The notes under the pieces are model-generated. The model had not been told where the DNA came from. It worked only from the letters and a program-made list of their open reading frames with translations, and made no database searches. DNA of 61,213 nt from Roseateles sp. (GTDB lineage: Bacteria; Pseudomonadota; Gammaproteobacteria; Burkholderiales; Burkholderiaceae_C): NCBI GenBank assembly GCA_015657635.1, contig JACDQM010000067.1, positions 1 through 61,213 on the forward strand. The letters are read 5' to 3'. Position 1 is the stretch's first letter; each line of letters opens with the position of its first letter. Below, piece by piece: positions 7,178 to 61,213 of this stretch. The position numbers were made by a program, and so were the translations under genes.

Positions 7178-9277
7178 TCAATCGCTGCCGTAGCGGCGCA
7201 TCAAGGCCTGCTGGGCGCTGACACCGCTGCTGCTGATGCGGCGCGACTGCCCGTCCGGCCCCAGCTGCCAGGCGTCGCGGCTGTCATGCAGATAGGGCTG
7301 CAGCGCCTCGTCGATCACGCGTTGGCGCAGCTTGGGATCCAGCACCGGCCAGGCCACCTCGATGCGACGGAACATATTGCGGCTCATCCAGTCGGCGCTG
7401 GACAGGTACAGCGCTTCCTGGTCGTCGCCATCGCCCCAGCGGAAATAGCTGACGCGCGAATGCTCCAGGAAACGCCCCACCACCGAGCGCACCAGGATGT
7501 TGTCGGTCTGCCCCGGCAGCCCCGGTGGCAGCATGCAGGCGCCGCGCACGATCAGGTCGATCTTGGCGCCAGCCTGGCCGGCTTCAACGAGCCCGCGGAT
7601 CATCTCGGTATCGGTCAGCGCATTGATCTTCAGCACGACGCGGGCCGCGTAGCCGGCCCGCGCAGCCGCAGCCACCTGACCCAGCATTTCCATCATGCGC
7701 TGGTGCATATTGAAGGGCGCCAGCAGCAGGCGCTTCGGCGGCTTGAAGCGCGACAGCGAGGCCAGCTGGCGGAACACCGTGTCCACATCCGAGGTCATGT
7801 CCGGGTCGGCCGTCAGGCAGCCCAGGTCGGTGTACAGGCGCGCCGTCTTTGGGTTGTAGTTGCCGGTCGACAGATGGGCGTAGCGCTTCAGGCGCCCGTT
7901 CTCACGGCGCGTCACCAGCAGCAGCTTGGCGTGAGTCTTCAGGCCGACGATGCCGTAGACCACCTGTGCGCCAACCGCCTCCAGGCGCTCGGCCCAGTTG
8001 ATATTCGCCTCTTCGTCGAAGCGCGCCTTCAGCTCGACCACCACCATCACTTCCTTGCCGCGCCGCGCGGCCTCGATCAGCAGGTCCATCAGCTCGGACT
8101 TGCTGCCGGTGCGGTAGACCGTCTGCTTGATCGCCAGCACATCGGGGTCATGCACTGCCTGCCGCAGCAGCTCGACCACTGGCTCGAAGCTCTCGAAGGG
8201 GTGGTGCAGCAGCACATCGCTCTTCGCGATGTTTTCGAACATCGACTTGCCGCGCGGCAGGCGCCGCTGTGGCCAGGCCGGCTCATGCGGCGCAAAGCGC
8301 AACTCCGACGCATCCGTCAGGTCGATGAGCTCGTTCAGCCGCACCAGATTGACCGGACCGTTGACGCGATACAGCGCCGCCTCCGGCAGATCGAACTGCT
8401 CCAGCAGAAAATCCGACAACTCCTGGGGGCAGGTGTTGACCACCTCTAGCCGCACCGCACGGCCGAAGTGGCGCGTCGTCAGCCCGGTGCGCAGCGCGTG
8501 GCGCAGATTGCCCACCTCTTCCTCGTCCACCGTCAGGTCCGAGTCGCGTGTGACGCGGAACTGCGAGAAGGCCTCCACCTTACGACCCGTGAACAGCTCT
8601 TCCAGATGGGCGCGGATCACGCTGGTCAGCAGCACGAAGATCTGCTGACCGCCGCTGACCGAATCGGGCAGCTTGATCACGCGCGGCAGCACCCGCGGCA
8701 CCTTGACAATGGCGATCCGGTTGTCGCGCCCGAAGGCATCCTTGCCCGACAGCCGCGCGATGAAATGCAGCGACTTGTTGGCCACCTGCGGGAAGGGATG
8801 TGCCGGGTCCAGCCCGACGGGCACCAGCAGCGGCCGCACTTCGCGCTCGAAGAAGCGCGCCACCCAGCGCCGCTGCGGCTCGTTGCGGTCCGCATGGTTG
8901 TGCACCACGATGCCCTGCGCGCGCAGCGCCGGCATCACCTGGTCGTTGAAGATGGCGTACTGCTGGTCGATCAGCTCATGCGCGGCGCGGCCGACACGGG
9001 CCACGTCGCGGTTGCTGACCAGGCCGGCCGGATCGCGCGCCGCATCCAGCATGTCGGCAAAGCGCACCTCGAAGAACTCGTCGAGATTGGACGAGACGAT
9101 GCAGATATAGCGCAGCCGCTCCAGCAGCGGCACATCCTCGCGCTGCGCCTGGGCCAGCACGCGGCGGTTGAACTCGAGAATCGCCTGCTCGCGATTCAGC
9201 AATGGAACCGTGGGTGCAAGAATGCGGGCCTCGCCGGCTTCAGGCGTGGCGGTCGGCAGCGGCGGATTTTTAGTCAT
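7178..9277 (-). CDS. ppk1: Polyphosphate kinase 1
   Basis: Reversibly polymerises the gamma-phosphate of ATP into polyphosphate at the inner membrane. It is 699 residues, close to E. coli PPK (688). The N domain starts LLNREQAILEFNRRVL and LRYICIVSSNLDEFFEVR. The phospholipase-D-like catalytic domains carry His449 (KTHAKLLL, the autophosphorylated His) and His606 (FLEHSRV). The 157-residue spacing of the two histidines equals that of H435 and H592 in E. coli. The YLSSADWM motif is also present. It is convergent with ppx, so the two are not one operon as in E. coli. No PHO box was seen in the 93-bp upstream gap. Confidence 0.96.
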   Translation of the reverse strand: MTKNPPLPTATPEAGEARILAPTVPLLNREQAILEFNRRVLAQAQREDVPLLERLRYICIVSSNLDEFFEVRFADMLDAARDPAGLVSNRDVARVGRAAHELIDQQYAIFNDQVMPALRAQGIVVHNHADRNEPQRRWVARFFEREVRPLLVPVGLDPAHPFPQVANKSLHFIARLSGKDAFGRDNRIAIVKVPRVLPRVIKLPDSVSGGQQIFVLLTSVIRAHLEELFTGRKVEAFSQFRVTRDSDLTVDEEEVGNLRHALRTGLTTRHFGRAVRLEVVNTCPQELSDFLLEQFDLPEAALYRVNGPVNLVRLNELIDLTDASELRFAPHEPAWPQRRLPRGKSMFENIAKSDVLLHHPFESFEPVVELLRQAVHDPDVLAIKQTVYRTGSKSELMDLLIEAARRGKEVMVVVELKARFDEEANINWAERLEAVGAQVVYGIVGLKTHAKLLLVTRRENGRLKRYAHLSTGNYNPKTARLYTDLGCLTADPDMTSDVDTVFRQLASLSRFKPPKRLLLAPFNMHQRMMEMLGQVAAAARAGYAARVVLKINALTDTEMIRGLVEAGQAGAKIDLIVRGACMLPPGLPGQTDNILVRSVVGRFLEHSRVSYFRWGDGDDQEALYLSSADWMSRNMFRRIEVAWPVLDPKLRQRVIDEALQPYLHDSRDAWQLGPDGQSRRISSSGVSAQQALMRRYGSD

Positions 9278-48752: not shown

Positions 48753-50683
48753 CGCAGCCAGTCCAGTTCAAGGCGCTGCTGCAGGCGCCGGGCGACGCGA
48801 AAGCTCTCCTTGAGCACGCGGCGGTCGATGTCGTTGAGCGCGTCCAGCGCGATCCAATTCGGCTGATCGCTCGGCATGGCTCCTTCGCCGGCGGCCTCCA
48901 TCTGCACACGCAGGCGCAGCATCTGCAGAAACTCGAAAGCGCCGATCCAGCCCTCGCTTTCGGCCGCGCTCACCTGCAGTGCGCGACCCATGGCCTCAAA
49001 GCGCTCGCGCGTGTTGGTGGCGCTGATGCCATGGGCTAGCGCGTGAATGCGTGCCACGTCCACAAAGATGGCGGTGCCATGCAGCTTCAGGTCAATGCCC
49101 TCGCGCCCCGCGGCGTTCTTCTCGCCCTCCACGGCGCCCAGCCAGTTCAGCGGCGGCCGGCTGCGCAGGGAGTTCTCGGCCATCTGGCGCATGAAGCGCG
49201 GCAGTCGCGCCGCATGGCTGCCCAGCAGCTCGCGCAGCGGCGTCACCAGCGACACATCGCCCCAGATCGGGCGGAAGTCGAAATAGATGCTGGCCTTCAG
49301 CAGGTCCTCCGGCGCGCCATGCTCCATCCATTCATTGAAGGCCTCCAGCCACTCTTGTGCGCTCAGGCAGCAACTCGGGTTGGAAGCCATCACCCCGCCC
49401 TTGCACAGCGGATAGCCGCAGGCGTCCAGTGCCTGATTGACATCCAGCGCAAAGGCCAGCCAGCGTGGCCGGTCGCGCTCGGGATCATCGCTGACGAACA
49501 GCAGGCCGTTGTCCTGGTCGGTGGCAATGGTCTGCTCGCCGCGCCCTTCCGAGCCGAAGGCCAGCCAGCAGGCCTGGCGCTCATCCAAGCCATGCTGCTC
49601 AGCCTTGAGCTGGAGCAGGCGCTGGGTGAGCACATCGTTGAGGTGCGAGATCAATTCAGTGAGCTGGCGGGCGGCCACGCCCTGCGCCAGCAGATTGCGC
49701 GCGAAGCGGCGGATGTCCTGCGCCACCACACGCAGCGTGTCGACGTCCGGCGCAGCACGGATGCTGGTGCTGACCTGCTTGAGTGAGAGCCGCTGCATCG
49801 CGAACAGGTCACGCTCGGAAACGATGCTGACCACTCGGCCGTCCTCGGTCACCGGCACATGGCGCACGCCGTGGCGCGACATCAGCAGCGCCGCCTGCTG
49901 CGCGCTGTCGGCCAGCGTGAGGCAATGCACCGGCTGGCTCATCACCTGACCGATCGGCGTGCTCAGCGGCAGCTGCGGCAGCGTGATGCGCGACAGGATG
50001 TCATGGCGCGTCAGGATGCCCAAGGCGGCGCCGGCGCCATCGCAGACCAGCACCGAGCCGATATGGCGCAGATGCATCATCTCCAGCGCGGTCTGCAGCG
50101 GCGTGTCGGGCGACACGCTGGCCGGCGCACGGCGCTTGAGCTGCGCCAGCGGCGTCTCCATCGACTGCTCGGACAGGGTCTGCGAGGAATAGGCCACCTG
50201 CAGCGCGCGGCGTGACAGCGCCAGAAACTGGGCCACGCGCCGGTTCAGGAAATCGGCAAAGGGCGCGCTGAGCTTGGCCAGCGCATGCACCTGATCGGCC
50301 GGCAGCAGCAGACAGAAAGTGTCGCCCTGTGAGGTGTACGTGGCCGTGACGGCACGCGCGCCCAGCACGGCCCCGACGGGAAAGAACTCGCCCGGCTCGA
50401 AGTGAAAGCCACCGGCCGCTTCAGCAATGCCGCGCTGGCCGCTGACCGCCCCCTGGCGGACAAAGAACAAATGCTGCACCGGCCCGGACTCGGGCGACAG
50501 CATGGCCTCGCCTGGGGCGTAATAAGCTTGGCTGGCATGGCGCACGAAGTGCAGCACATGCTCGGCTTGCATCTGCGCGAAAGGCGCGTAGCGCTGCAGT
50601 TCGGCCTGCAGCTGGGCCATCAGCTGCCAGAAGGGCTGGCAGCGGGGCTGGCGGATGGTTGAAGCTGGGTTCATGGCAAGCAT
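48749..50683 (-). CDS. cNMP-binding/CBS/DUF294 nucleotidyltransferase-like regulator
   Basis: 644 residues in four parts: a cyclic-nucleotide-binding-like domain (about 20-140), two CBS domains (about 175-285; TALEMMHLRHIGSVLVCD and HGVRHVPVTEDGRVVSIVSERD), a DUF294 putative nucleotidyltransferase (GSEGRGEQTIATDQDNGLLF, the GS-x-GR-x-E and DxD metal motif of the GlnD/GlnE fold), and the DUF294 C-terminal helical domain. It probably senses adenylates and modifies or controls the neighbouring symporter. Starts at 50683 and 50674 cannot be separated. A terminator lies between it and the symporter genes upstream. Confidence 0.9.
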   Translation of the reverse strand: MLAMNPASTIRQPRCQPFWQLMAQLQAELQRYAPFAQMQAEHVLHFVRHASQAYYAPGEAMLSPESGPVQHLFFVRQGAVSGQRGIAEAAGGFHFEPGEFFPVGAVLGARAVTATYTSQGDTFCLLLPADQVHALAKLSAPFADFLNRRVAQFLALSRRALQVAYSSQTLSEQSMETPLAQLKRRAPASVSPDTPLQTALEMMHLRHIGSVLVCDGAGAALGILTRHDILSRITLPQLPLSTPIGQVMSQPVHCLTLADSAQQAALLMSRHGVRHVPVTEDGRVVSIVSERDLFAMQRLSLKQVSTSIRAAPDVDTLRVVAQDIRRFARNLLAQGVAARQLTELISHLNDVLTQRLLQLKAEQHGLDERQACWLAFGSEGRGEQTIATDQDNGLLFVSDDPERDRPRWLAFALDVNQALDACGYPLCKGGVMASNPSCCLSAQEWLEAFNEWMEHGAPEDLLKASIYFDFRPIWGDVSLVTPLRELLGSHAARLPRFMRQMAENSLRSRPPLNWLGAVEGEKNAAGREGIDLKLHGTAIFVDVARIHALAHGISATNTRERFEAMGRALQVSAAESEGWIGAFEFLQMLRLRVQMEAAGEGAMPSDQPNWIALDALNDIDRRVLKESFRVARRLQQRLELDWLR

Positions 50684-58249: not shown

Positions 58250-59263
58250 ATGACCCGTCGCGTCAGCCTCACCCAGTACCTGATCGAGCAGCAGCGCCAG
58301 CATGGCCACATCCCGCAGGAGCTGCGCCTGCTGATCGAAGTCGTCGCACGCGCCTGCAAGCGCATCGCAATCAGCGTCAACAAGGGCGCTCTCGGCGATG
58401 TGCTGGGCACGGCCGGCAGCGAGAACGTGCAGGGTGAGGTGCAGAAGAAGCTCGACATCATCGCCAACGAGGTGCTGATCGAAGCCAACGAATGGGGCGG
58501 CCACCTGGCCGCGATGGCCTCCGAGGAAATGGAAGGCATCTACCTGGTGCCCAACCGCTTCCCGCAGGGCGAGTACCTCCTGATGTTCGACCCGCTGGAC
58601 GGCTCGTCCAATATCGACGTCAACGTCTCGATCGGCACCATCTTCTCGGTGCTGAAGAAACCTGAAGGCGCCAAGGGCGTCAGCGAAGAGGACTTCCTGC
58701 AGCCTGGCAGCCAGCAGGCCGCCGCCGGCTACTGCGTCTATGGCCCGCAGACCACGCTGGTGCTGACGGTGGGCGACGGCGTCACGATGTTCACGCTGGA
58801 CCGCGAGCAAGGCTCCTTCGTGCTGACGACCGAGAGCGTGAGCATCCCGGAGGACACCAAGGAGTTCGCCATCAATATGTCGAACATGCGCCATTGGGAC
58901 GAGCCGATGAAGCGCTATATCGACGAATGCCTGGCCGGCAAGGAAGGCCCGCGCGGCAAGGATTTCAATATGCGCTGGATCGCCTCCATGGTGGCCGATG
59001 TGCACCGCATCCTGACGCGTGGCGGCGTCTTCATGTATCCCTGGGACAAGCGCGAACCGAACAAGGCCGGCAAGCTGCGCCTCATGTACGAAGCCAACCC
59101 GATGGCCTTCCTGATCGAGCAGGCCGGTGGCGCCGCCACCAACACGCGCCAGCGCATCATGGACCTGACGCCGACTCAATTGCACGAGCGCGTCTCGGTG
59201 GTGCTGGGGTCGAAGAACGAGGTGGAACGCATCACTGCTTACCACCTTGACGCGAAGCCCTAA
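58250..59263 (+). CDS. fbp: Fructose-1,6-bisphosphatase, class I
   Basis: 337-residue gluconeogenic phosphatase. The metal-binding signature [18 protein letters not shown] and EQAGGAATN region are intact, and ECLAGKEG and [27 protein letters not shown] are standard. The gene begins 30 bp after pepN. Its 3' end contains the -35 element of the tRNA-Thr promoter. Confidence 0.97.
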
Positions 59264-59277
59264 AACTCGTCTATAAT
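59247..59277 (+). promoter_or_regulatory. Promoter of tRNA-Thr
   Basis: A perfect -10 TATAAT (59272-59277) lies 12 bp before the tRNA, with TTGACG (59247-59252) at a 19-bp spacing as -35, inside fbp. A GC-rich discriminator (GGCGGGC) follows the -10, as usual in stable-RNA promoters under stringent control. Confidence 0.75.
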
Positions 59278-59289
59278 GGCGGGCTTGAC

Positions 59290-59365
59290 GCCGATGTAGC
59301 TCAGTTGGTAGAGCAGCGCATTCGTAATGCGAAGGTCGGGAGTTCGACTCTCTTCATCGGCACCA
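59290..59365 (+). tRNA. tRNA-Thr (anticodon CGT)
   Basis: 76 nt including an encoded CCA. The acceptor GCCGATG pairs with CATCGGC. D arm GCTC/GAGC and T arm GGGAG/CTCTT (two G-U pairs) are formed. The anticodon loop is TTCGTAA, so the anticodon is CGT and the codon ACG. The 27-43 pair of the anticodon stem is a G-A mismatch. A terminator follows at once. tRNA 3' ends are common integration sites, and the DNA to the right looks foreign. Confidence 0.96.
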
Positions 59366-59372
59366 GAAAAAT

Positions 59373-59410
59373 CAAGGGGTTAGCGCTGCAAGGTGCTGAC
59401 CCCTTGTCCT
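59373..59410 (+). terminator. Terminator of tRNA-Thr
   Basis: A 12-bp stem with one G-U pair (CAAGGGGTTAGC at 59373-59384, GCTGACCCCTTG at 59395-59406) encloses a 10-nt loop and is followed by TCCTTTT. It begins 7 bp after the tRNA. Confidence 0.85.
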
Positions 59411-59427
59411 TTTCAGGCCTCAGTGGA

Positions 59428-59601
59428 TCAGGTTGTAGGGGCTCTGTAGGGGCAAGGATCAACTTCTCTGTCCACCAACAGCTGCCAGCTACGCTGCGTG
59501 CCCTTGGCAATGAGGTACGCCTGCGCCTCAATCGCCAGTCCAGAGTCGAGCATTGGGCCAGCTCCGTGAGTCGTCGCCTGGACGCCGCAGTACCTGGTCA
59601 C
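59428..59601 (-). CDS. Possible small gene of unknown function (57 residues)
   Basis: A GTG at 59601 overlaps the stop of the upstream unknown gene (GTGA). The frame encodes MTRYCGVQATTHGAGPMLDS, followed by about 37 residues with no known motif. There is no clear ribosome binding site. The tight overlap is the main support. Confidence 0.35.
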   Translation of the reverse strand: MTRYCGVQATTHGAGPMLDSGLAIEAQAYLIAKGTQRSWQLLVDREVDPCPYRAPTT

Positions 59602-60534
59602 GCGGACAACACGAGGGACTGTCGGTCGCTGATCTGTTCCAGGACGGGCAGTCCCCGCTCGCGCAGGGGCCATCTGTAGTCATCCAGGGTGTCCAGCGCC
59701 ACATTCTTGGCGGCCTCGAGGTCAAGCACTTGCTGGTCGACCTTGCGCGACTCCATGCGGTTACGCCGAGGCGCGCCGCGCAGGCCCATCAGCAGGTTGT
59801 CGCGGATCTCGATTGAGCGCTTGCCGAAGGCGCCGAAGCCCTTGGGGTCAGCATCGCGCAGCTTGTCTAGGAACCCCTGTTCGTCGGAGCGGTTGCTCAT
59901 GGAGTCGGCCGTTATCTCCGAACGGAGGTACTGCCACTTGAGCAGCTCCTGCAAGCGCACCTCCCTGGGTGTCTCATCGCCAATGGCGTCGAGCTCGCCC
60001 TTGTAGAGCAACAGCTCAGCGCAAGCGCCCATGCCCTCCTCCGACATTTCATCCAACAGCCCCCCCCGATGCGGGCCATGAAGCGCTGCAGAGGCGTGCC
60101 CTTCAGGACGGCCTTGGTCTCGCGCTCGGCGACGCGGTCGATGATGTACTTGGGCTCGTGCCAGGTCGTGTGCGCCGCGCCCATGGCATTGCCACACGAC
60201 ACGTTGACCATGGCGTAGCCGCCAAGTTGCATGCCGTTGGCGGCGCCCTGGCTGTCGTCCCTGTAGGCGACGATGCATCTGCCGCGGCCAAACGACACGC
60301 CCAGCGCCCCGGCGATGCCGCCGAATGTGACTGCCGCCTCCAGGTCGAGGTCGTTCAGGCTGGGGGCGTCTGAGGCGTAGATGTGTCTTTGCTGGACGAG
60401 GTGAGCCAGTCGTTCCGCGACCACTCGGCGATGGCCTCGGACGTCATCTTCCGCAGCAGCTTTGCCGGTATCCCCATCGGGCACCCCTGCGCCTGCGACT
60501 GCTGTTCCTCGACCGGCTGCTCGTTGCTGTCCAT
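59598..60534 (-). pseudogene. Unrecognised gene to the right of tRNA-Thr, two apparent frameshifts
   Basis: Starts at 60534 (MDSNEQPVEEQQ) with AGGAGG 7 bases upstream. The frame breaks at about 60385 (after NDWLTSS), continues with IYASDAPSLNDLDLEAAVTF, breaks again at a run of eight G (60060-60067) and ends at 59598. Two added bases give 312 residues. Visible parts: an opening with LLRKMTSEAIAEWSRNDWL, a Gly-rich region (FGGIAGALGVSFGRGRC), a Trp/His region (AHTTWHEPKYIID), then a long charged helical part (GFLDKLRDADPKGFGAFGKR). No signal peptide. I do not recognise a family; phage or mobile-element origin is possible given the tRNA site. Confidence 0.55.
59646..59674 (-). repeat. Solitary degenerate copy of the type I-E-like CRISPR repeat
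   Basis: A 29-nt segment matches the right-end repeat at 23 of 29 positions, including the central CCCCGCTCGCGC. It lies 1.4 kb from the array and no further copy occurs 61 bp away. It also lies inside the open frame of the unknown gene (region WPLRERGLPV), so chance or shared ancestry are both possible. Confidence 0.3.
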
Positions 60535-60537
60535 CAT

Positions 60538-61067
60538 TGGCCTCCTGTGTGACCATTGTGCCCCCCCGGTAAACGGGGCCTCCGCCGCTACGATGTCCTG
60601 CGGCACGCCTGAAAAGTCCGCGTTAGCCGGCACTACGCTAGGTTCAGCCACGGTGGCGTTGCCACGGCTTGCACTTGCTACCGGAGCGGCGACTGCAGCG
60701 GCCTGCTGTCCGGCAGCCGCAGATGCGCTGGCGCTGCCCACAGGAGTGATACCTCCCGGGGCAACCGGCGCTCCGGCATCGACAGCGCAGCCGGGGCGTC
60801 CTTGCCCCAAGTCTCGCTAGCCGAGTCGGTGAACGAGTCGCCGGCTAGGGGCTCGCCCAGCGCAGCGCGCTGGACCAGTGTTGCCCCGTTGGCCGGGCGC
60901 ATCGTCCTGCCAAGCTAAGCCCGGCGCCACCAGCGTCGGCATCTGCAGCTCGGCAGGCCACGCGGCGCGGTCGGAGCCGACGAGGCGCTCCTGGCTCGAG
61001 TCGGGCCTGCCGTTGCGCAGTTCCATCACCGCGTCGACGATCGAGGTCTGGTCGCCGGTAGGTGTTC
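60538..61067 (-). pseudogene. Broken coding region of unknown function upstream of the unrecognised gene
   Basis: Protein-like sequence on the minus strand switches frame at least twice: TSIVDAVMELRNGRPDSSQE and MPTLVAPGLAWQDDAPGQ in one frame, RPANGATLVQRAALGEPLAG and DSFTDSASETWGKDAPAA in the next, and an Ala/Ser/Val-rich linker (about 60730-60540) with FSGVPQDIVAAEAPFTGG in a third. The breaks lie near 60905, 60765 and perhaps in a seven-G run near 60565. No start is certain and the family is unknown. It may form one operon with the gene that follows. Confidence 0.4.
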
Positions 61068-61213
61068 GGGGTCATCCTCGATCGCGCGGGGCAGCCCTGC
61101 GGCCACGGCTGCGTTCAACGTGCATGCAGGGGTCCCATCCCCGCTCGCGCGGGGGCAACCTCCAGCTTCAGCGCCTTGCGGGCGCGCACCATGGGGTCCA
61201 TCCCCGCTCGCGC
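61068..61213 (-). CRISPR. Trailer end of a probable type I-E CRISPR array, cut by the window edge
   Basis: Three copies of a repeat occur: 61068-61096 (29 nt, degenerate), 61129-61160 (32 nt) and 61193-61213 (truncated by the window). Two spacers, 61097-61128 and 61161-61192, are both exactly 32 nt, the standard I-E spacer. The repeat has the I-E palindrome CCCCGC-TCGC-GCGGGG and, on the minus strand, ends GGGGATGGACC, close to the E. coli form GGGGATAAACC. The degenerate copy is at the lower coordinate, as expected for the last repeat, so transcription runs right to left and leader and cas genes should be right of the window. Copies differ by short homopolymer indels. Confidence 0.6.

Follow-up and report, generated by a model that had tools for sequence, protein, structure and literature searches.

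The window, the whole stretch of 61213 bases that was analysed, is the entire contig C129 of a Roseateles assembly (G000; 4.6 Mb, 191 contigs, 93.8 % complete). Its last 145 bases (61069-61213) contain two spacers of 32 nt and three repeat copies, of which one is degenerate, one complete and one cut. The features are as follows.

59290-59365, plus strand: tRNA-Thr (CGT), the apparent integration site of an island
59316-59365, plus strand: left attachment repeat, made up of the last 50 nt of tRNA-Thr and matching G000:C130:1881-1930 at every position
59366-61213, plus strand: left end of the apparent island; the match to the same-genus genome G036 stops at 59384
59388-59422, plus strand: hairpin-like stretch, seen by eye, which replaces the chromosomal one after tRNA-Thr
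59598-60810, minus strand: coding-looking stretch, seemingly split over three frames
61069-61096, minus strand: copy 1 of the repeat, degenerate and likely marking the array's trailer end
61097-61128, minus strand: spacer 1, 32 nt, read in the sequence, without a convincing target
61129-61160, minus strand: repeat copy 2, complete, with one surplus base in each of two runs
61161-61192, minus strand: spacer 2, 32 nt, with a prophage match in genome G077 (30/32 nt)
61193-61213, minus strand: repeat copy 3, truncated where the contig stops, presumably on the leader side

The repeat is palindromic, of the type I-E kind and about 28-30 nt long, and the two spacers are unique and evenly spaced, with a core-to-core distance of 63 nt found twice. 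Copy 3 is identical to the repeat consensus at 19 of 19 aligned bases. The original prediction, a partial type I-E CRISPR array with two 32-nt spacers at the right end of the window, is confirmed by these repeats and spacers and by the sister arrays described below. Its statement that the window stops within a repeat holds as well, the window being a whole contig and copy 3 being cut. The left-most copy is degenerate, as is that of the arrays in two genomes of the same family (G120 and G177), which places the trailer side at the left, where the decayed copy had been predicted to mark it. The piece is thus likely the trailer end, with the leader beyond the contig end, to the right. A PRARGDG-like translation had also been attributed to this stretch; the loose likeness stands, the actual frames giving PARAGM and HPRSRG.

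Beside the array, the coding-looking stretch shows a marked periodic G+C bias in parts. Its 226-aa frame recovered only the prediction from its own contig among 587 candidates in a search of about 5.8 billion proteins, and no fitting Pfam or PHROG family was found for the frames beside the array. The apparent split of this stretch over three frames, together with the extra bases in the runs of copy 2, suggests possible decay or poor sequence quality at the contig end.

With up to 2 mismatches, the 18-nt core of the repeat occurs three times in the genome (4.6 Mb), each time in the final 1.6 kb of C129: in copy 1, in copy 2 and, outside the array, as a lone core at 59651. The reversed core pattern occurs at no place in the genome at the same tolerance. 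No further full repeat was found elsewhere in the assembly, and no other contig has the 18-nt core (≤2 mismatches). When both strands of the window were scanned with gaps allowed, scores of 48, 38 and 38 were obtained for the three copies and 32 for the lone core, the best score elsewhere being 26. A looser count, of a 16-mer at ≤3 mismatches, stands at chance level (5 matches, shuffle mean 5.26); two of the five are exact, and both lie inside the array. The lone repeat-like core (59651-59668, plus strand) is located 1.4 kb from the array, within the coding-looking stretch. Nowhere else in the genome, the array excepted, does the sequence come within 2 mismatches of the core, and the score of 32 for the lone core compares with a best of 30 among 100 random draws.

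When the island end was used as a query against 200 family genomes, matches at E 0.001 or better were found in 38, the own genome included. Most of these 38 have one short match each. Three have several, nearly all to the array part: G120 (31 matches), G177 (17) and G115 (8). Their arrays share the repeat core and have 76 (G120), 43 (G177) and 26 (G115) detected copies at a constant period of 61 nt. Cas7e was found in the same three of the eight genomes searched, each time at E 4.1e-94 or lower, and in G120 and G177 it lies on the right side of the array, presumably the leader side. Detailed typing as I-E was made at the G115 locus, where seven adjoining reading frames match models of Cas3e, Cas8e, Cas11e, Cas7e, Cas5e, Cas6/Cas6e and Cas1e, Cas2 being outside the models tested there. 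On the strength of the core common to the arrays in these three Cas7e-bearing genomes of the same family, the window array is assigned by sequence to type I-E, and the type named in the original prediction is upheld. The G115 contig also breaks inside its array, 41 bases past the last detected core; a contig break at such a place is therefore not unusual.

The exact 23-nt core, GGTCCATCCCCGCTCGCGCGGGG, was found in eight stretches of the named genome collection. These include the long arrays of a Burkholderiaceae MAG (JAEUOY010000064.1, period 61) and a Rubrivivax MAG (JADCGP010000003.1, period mostly 62). Other stretches with the exact core belong to planctomycete, Rhizobiales and Acidobacteriia MAGs, so the core is not particular to the family of the window. 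The repeat core of the window is like that of G115, G120, G177 and both long MAG arrays. The distance from the repeat plus its following C to the next repeat is 32 nt in the window as in G115, G120, G177 and the Burkholderiaceae MAG, whereas the spacing of 63 nt differs from the 61 nt of G115, G120 and G177 and the 62 nt that prevails in the Rubrivivax MAG. In contrast to the sister arrays, only three copies are seen in the window and cas genes were not found in its assembly. The window array also sits on an apparent tRNA-Thr island, whereas the sister arrays were compared by their repeat, irrespective of their location. Additional lone or paired I-E-like cores lie off the long array in Burkholderiaceae MAG-211 (L058 at about 7394-7416, L055 at 7609).

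The spacing of 63 nt is divisible by three, and a 112-aa frame is open to the contig end. Both would suit a protein-coding repeat with a period of 21 residues in place of a CRISPR array. However, the core is that of arrays with periods of 61 or 62 nt, three of them in genomes with Cas7e; the two spacers differ from each other, one of them matching a prophage; and the frame has no Pfam or PHROG match. A coding repeat is therefore extremely improbable and for practical purposes refuted. Likewise, the idea raised with the original prediction that a conserved coding frame might overturn it fails, because the repeat is the array repeat of other genomes.

A 33-nt query for spacer 2, run against 399 genomes of the family with ≤3 mismatches allowed, matched its own locus and one other, G077:C8:21010-21042, with 30 of 32 nt identical and mismatches at positions 21 and 25. 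Reversed spacer 2, searched as a control in the same 399 genomes at ≤3 mismatches, gave no match. G077 belongs to another genus, and the neighbourhood of the target is a prophage, with genes for a head maturation protease, terminase large subunit, HNH nuclease, primase, CII-like activator and S24 repressor. Between the primase and the CII-like gene, the target falls within a reading frame of 84 aa, which a 211-aa frame overlaps. Pfam gave no family for either frame, nor did PHROGs for the 211-aa one, and the protein of the protospacer frame is without a relative in phage records or viral contigs. The comparison of the spacers with phage sequence, proposed along with the original prediction, was thus productive for spacer 2.

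Directly before the 32-nt protospacer of spacer 2 stands AAC, as ahead of phage targets of G120. Two sister arrays (G120 and the Burkholderiaceae MAG) were searched against phage records, and 266 spacers of four sister arrays were compared with pieces of three of the phage records that matched. Of the 12 rows listed, 7 have the target preceded by AA and the C that follows the 28-nt repeat, and every one of these pairs a G120 spacer with Variovorax phage V45v66. The five rows without AAC are a second-place V45v66 match, AcaML1, Paolo and two short V45v66 matches. AAC is thus likely, from one array and one phage, to be the motif next to the targets. The 28-nt repeat is followed by two Cs in the window, and AAC takes its C from the second of these, as against the first in the sister arrays. 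Counted back 32 nt from the neighbouring repeat, this C is placed as in the sister arrays, and the register fits only in this way. One of the two spacers, spacer 2, therefore matches a mobile element beside a short motif.

Spacer 1 has no match at ≤3 mismatches in 398 other family genomes. In searches of phage and plasmid records with the spacers, the best E value among the matches listed (the best 20 of 135, 20 of 55, 5 of 42 and 1 of 1) was 0.006, and none of those listed covered a whole spacer. The best of them, to the Caballeronia plasmid p1 (31 nt, 90 %), was set aside, as it lies in an unrelated-looking frame. Four exact spacer pieces of 20 to 22 nt gave 0 stretches each in viral contigs.

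The hint of an acquired island in the original prediction is supported by a duplicated tRNA end, an empty site and mobility genes at the opposite end. The 50 nt at the 3′ end of tRNA-Thr recur at C130:1881-1930, identical at 50 of 50 positions, the kind of duplication by which tRNA islands are recognized. In G036, the sole same-genus genome searched, similarity to the window stops at 59384, shortly past tRNA-Thr, and a LonB-like gene follows directly, as at an empty site. The LonB-like gene of G000 is located on contig C130, directly behind the copy of the tRNA-Thr repeat and a hairpin-like stretch of the G036 type. The duplicated tRNA-Thr end and the position of the LonB-like gene thus suggest that C129:59366-61213 and C130:1-1880 are the two ends of one insertion, the middle of which is unassembled.

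The C130 end of the island encodes a Mob_Pre relaxase (E 2.6e-12) and an integrase remnant. The remnant (C130:1530-1679) corresponds to residues 428-477, the last 50, of the integrase of genome G111, with 78 % identity. For the first 427 residues the two stretches searched (C130:1-2000 and window 59201-61213) offered no equivalent, nor was the intact integrase that characterizes tRNA islands found there. The island is probably immobile at present, since only a remnant of the integrase is apparent. With the Mob_Pre relaxase as query, 28 of 399 family genomes (own included) had a match at E 0.001 or better, several of these matches being weak and partial. A 23-nt direct repeat lies near both island ends (window 59433-59455 and G000:C130:1734-1756, 22/23 identical) and is possibly formed of arm-type integrase sites.

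G111 and G058, two genomes that were picked for a flank resembling that of the window and give no rate, also have islands at this tRNA-Thr, each with an integrase and duplicated tRNA ends. The G111 island (4.6 kb between attachment repeats) and the G058 island (9.2 kb) share with that of the window the tRNA gene, its duplicated 3′ end and a related integrase, and the G058 island also shares the Mob_Pre relaxase. The hairpin-like stretch at 59388-59422 resembles the corresponding place of the G111 island at 89 %. Unlike in the window island, the array repeat core was not found in the stretches fetched from G111 and G058. Eight further relaxase-bearing stretches were scanned for tRNAs, attachment repeats, island-end matches and the repeat core; one lone repeat core is present in one such stretch, L077. 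The 1848-base island end has nothing alike in plasmid and phage records at E 1e-5, and short tblastx matches to the GC-rich locus L057, among the matches listed, were discarded as composition noise. tRNA-Thr is the sole match in an Rfam scan of the window. A tRNA-Ala called by ARAGORN at 50530-50618 is not confirmed by Rfam, lies within a 644-aa frame of the opposite strand and is probably a false call.

A cas operon had been expected with the array. Cas1 (two models), Cse1 and Cas7e were not found in the 94 %-complete assembly, in which the leader side falls beyond the contig end; among these models a positive control on three I-E relatives applies to Cas7e only. Cas7e was not found in G036 either. 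The Cas3e model has four weak matches in G000 (best 1.1e-6) and four in G036 (best 3.2e-8), compared with 5.7e-161 or lower in three I-E genomes. The operon may be located in the unassembled middle of the island, may lie elsewhere and have been lost from the assembly, or may be absent.

If it is absent, the array could be an orphan, the leftover of a lost I-E system on a decayed island and no longer working. Such an outcome would agree with the failure to find Cas1, Cse1 and Cas7e, with the degenerate copy and the seemingly split neighbouring stretch, and with an integrase of which only the last 50 residues are seen. However, the assembly has a completeness of 94 % and the contig break falls right inside the array, which leaves the far side out of view. 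Additionally, spacer 2 is only 2 mismatches from a prophage in another genus, and the arrays of G120 and G177 also have degenerate left-most copies. An orphan array is accordingly considered rather unlikely, though it keeps a substantial minority of the weight. A different role for an array devoid of cas genes would be as cargo or weapon of a mobilizable island, borrowing Cascade and Cas3 from the host or another element against rival phages or prophages. The position of the array inward of the tRNA-Thr attachment repeat, the relaxase at the other island end, the prophage match of a spacer and the cas genes not being found are all in keeping with this. However, Cas1e and Cas7e were not found in the own genome or in the only same-genus relative searched, which leaves no known provider of Cas proteins and makes this role quite improbable.

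The locus is best explained, with high confidence, as a cut-off piece of a type I-E array, likely its trailer end, on an apparent tRNA-Thr island, which likely provided RNA-guided immunity against phages, including relatives of the prophage matched by spacer 2. In type I-E systems Cascade and Cas3 act in sequence, and an A/T-rich leader is a usual feature at the young end of the array. By that scheme a leader past the end of the contig would drive transcription of the window array on the minus strand, and Cas6e would cleave every hairpin repeat. Each crRNA would then be carried by Cascade (Cas8e, Cas11e, Cas7e, Cas5e and Cas6e), which would locate its target beside 5′-AAC, and Cas3 would degrade the target DNA. 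The orientation, transcription, processing and interference are thus those predicted from known I-E systems, and the cas operon would be situated on the unassembled island middle or elsewhere in the cell.

Type I-E arrays on genomic islands have already been described, for example on GI-24 in Vibrio, an excisable island with a type I-E system, attL and attR, an integrase and cas genes (PMC6360697). GI-24 is like the window island in having an I-E array on an island bounded by attL and attR. It differs in its integrase and cas genes, as the window island has an integrase remnant and cas genes were not seen (PMC6360697). No literature joining Burkholderiales, type I-E, CRISPR array and mobile genetic element was found, and absence from print is not claimed. 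The present locus contributes, for its own family, an I-E array on an apparent tRNA island, where the point of interest is an island carrying an array with as opposed to without its own cas genes. The ends of C129 and C130 are named as the bounds within which the missing array and any cas genes would be expected. The prophage target with its AAC motif is open to testing.

A further observation concerns the array of G120 (G120:C1, L026, around 1027566-1032164). The seven spacers that match Variovorax phage V45v66 (L090), each by AAC, are located within ten consecutive places of the array. This cluster may record several acquisitions from a single phage.
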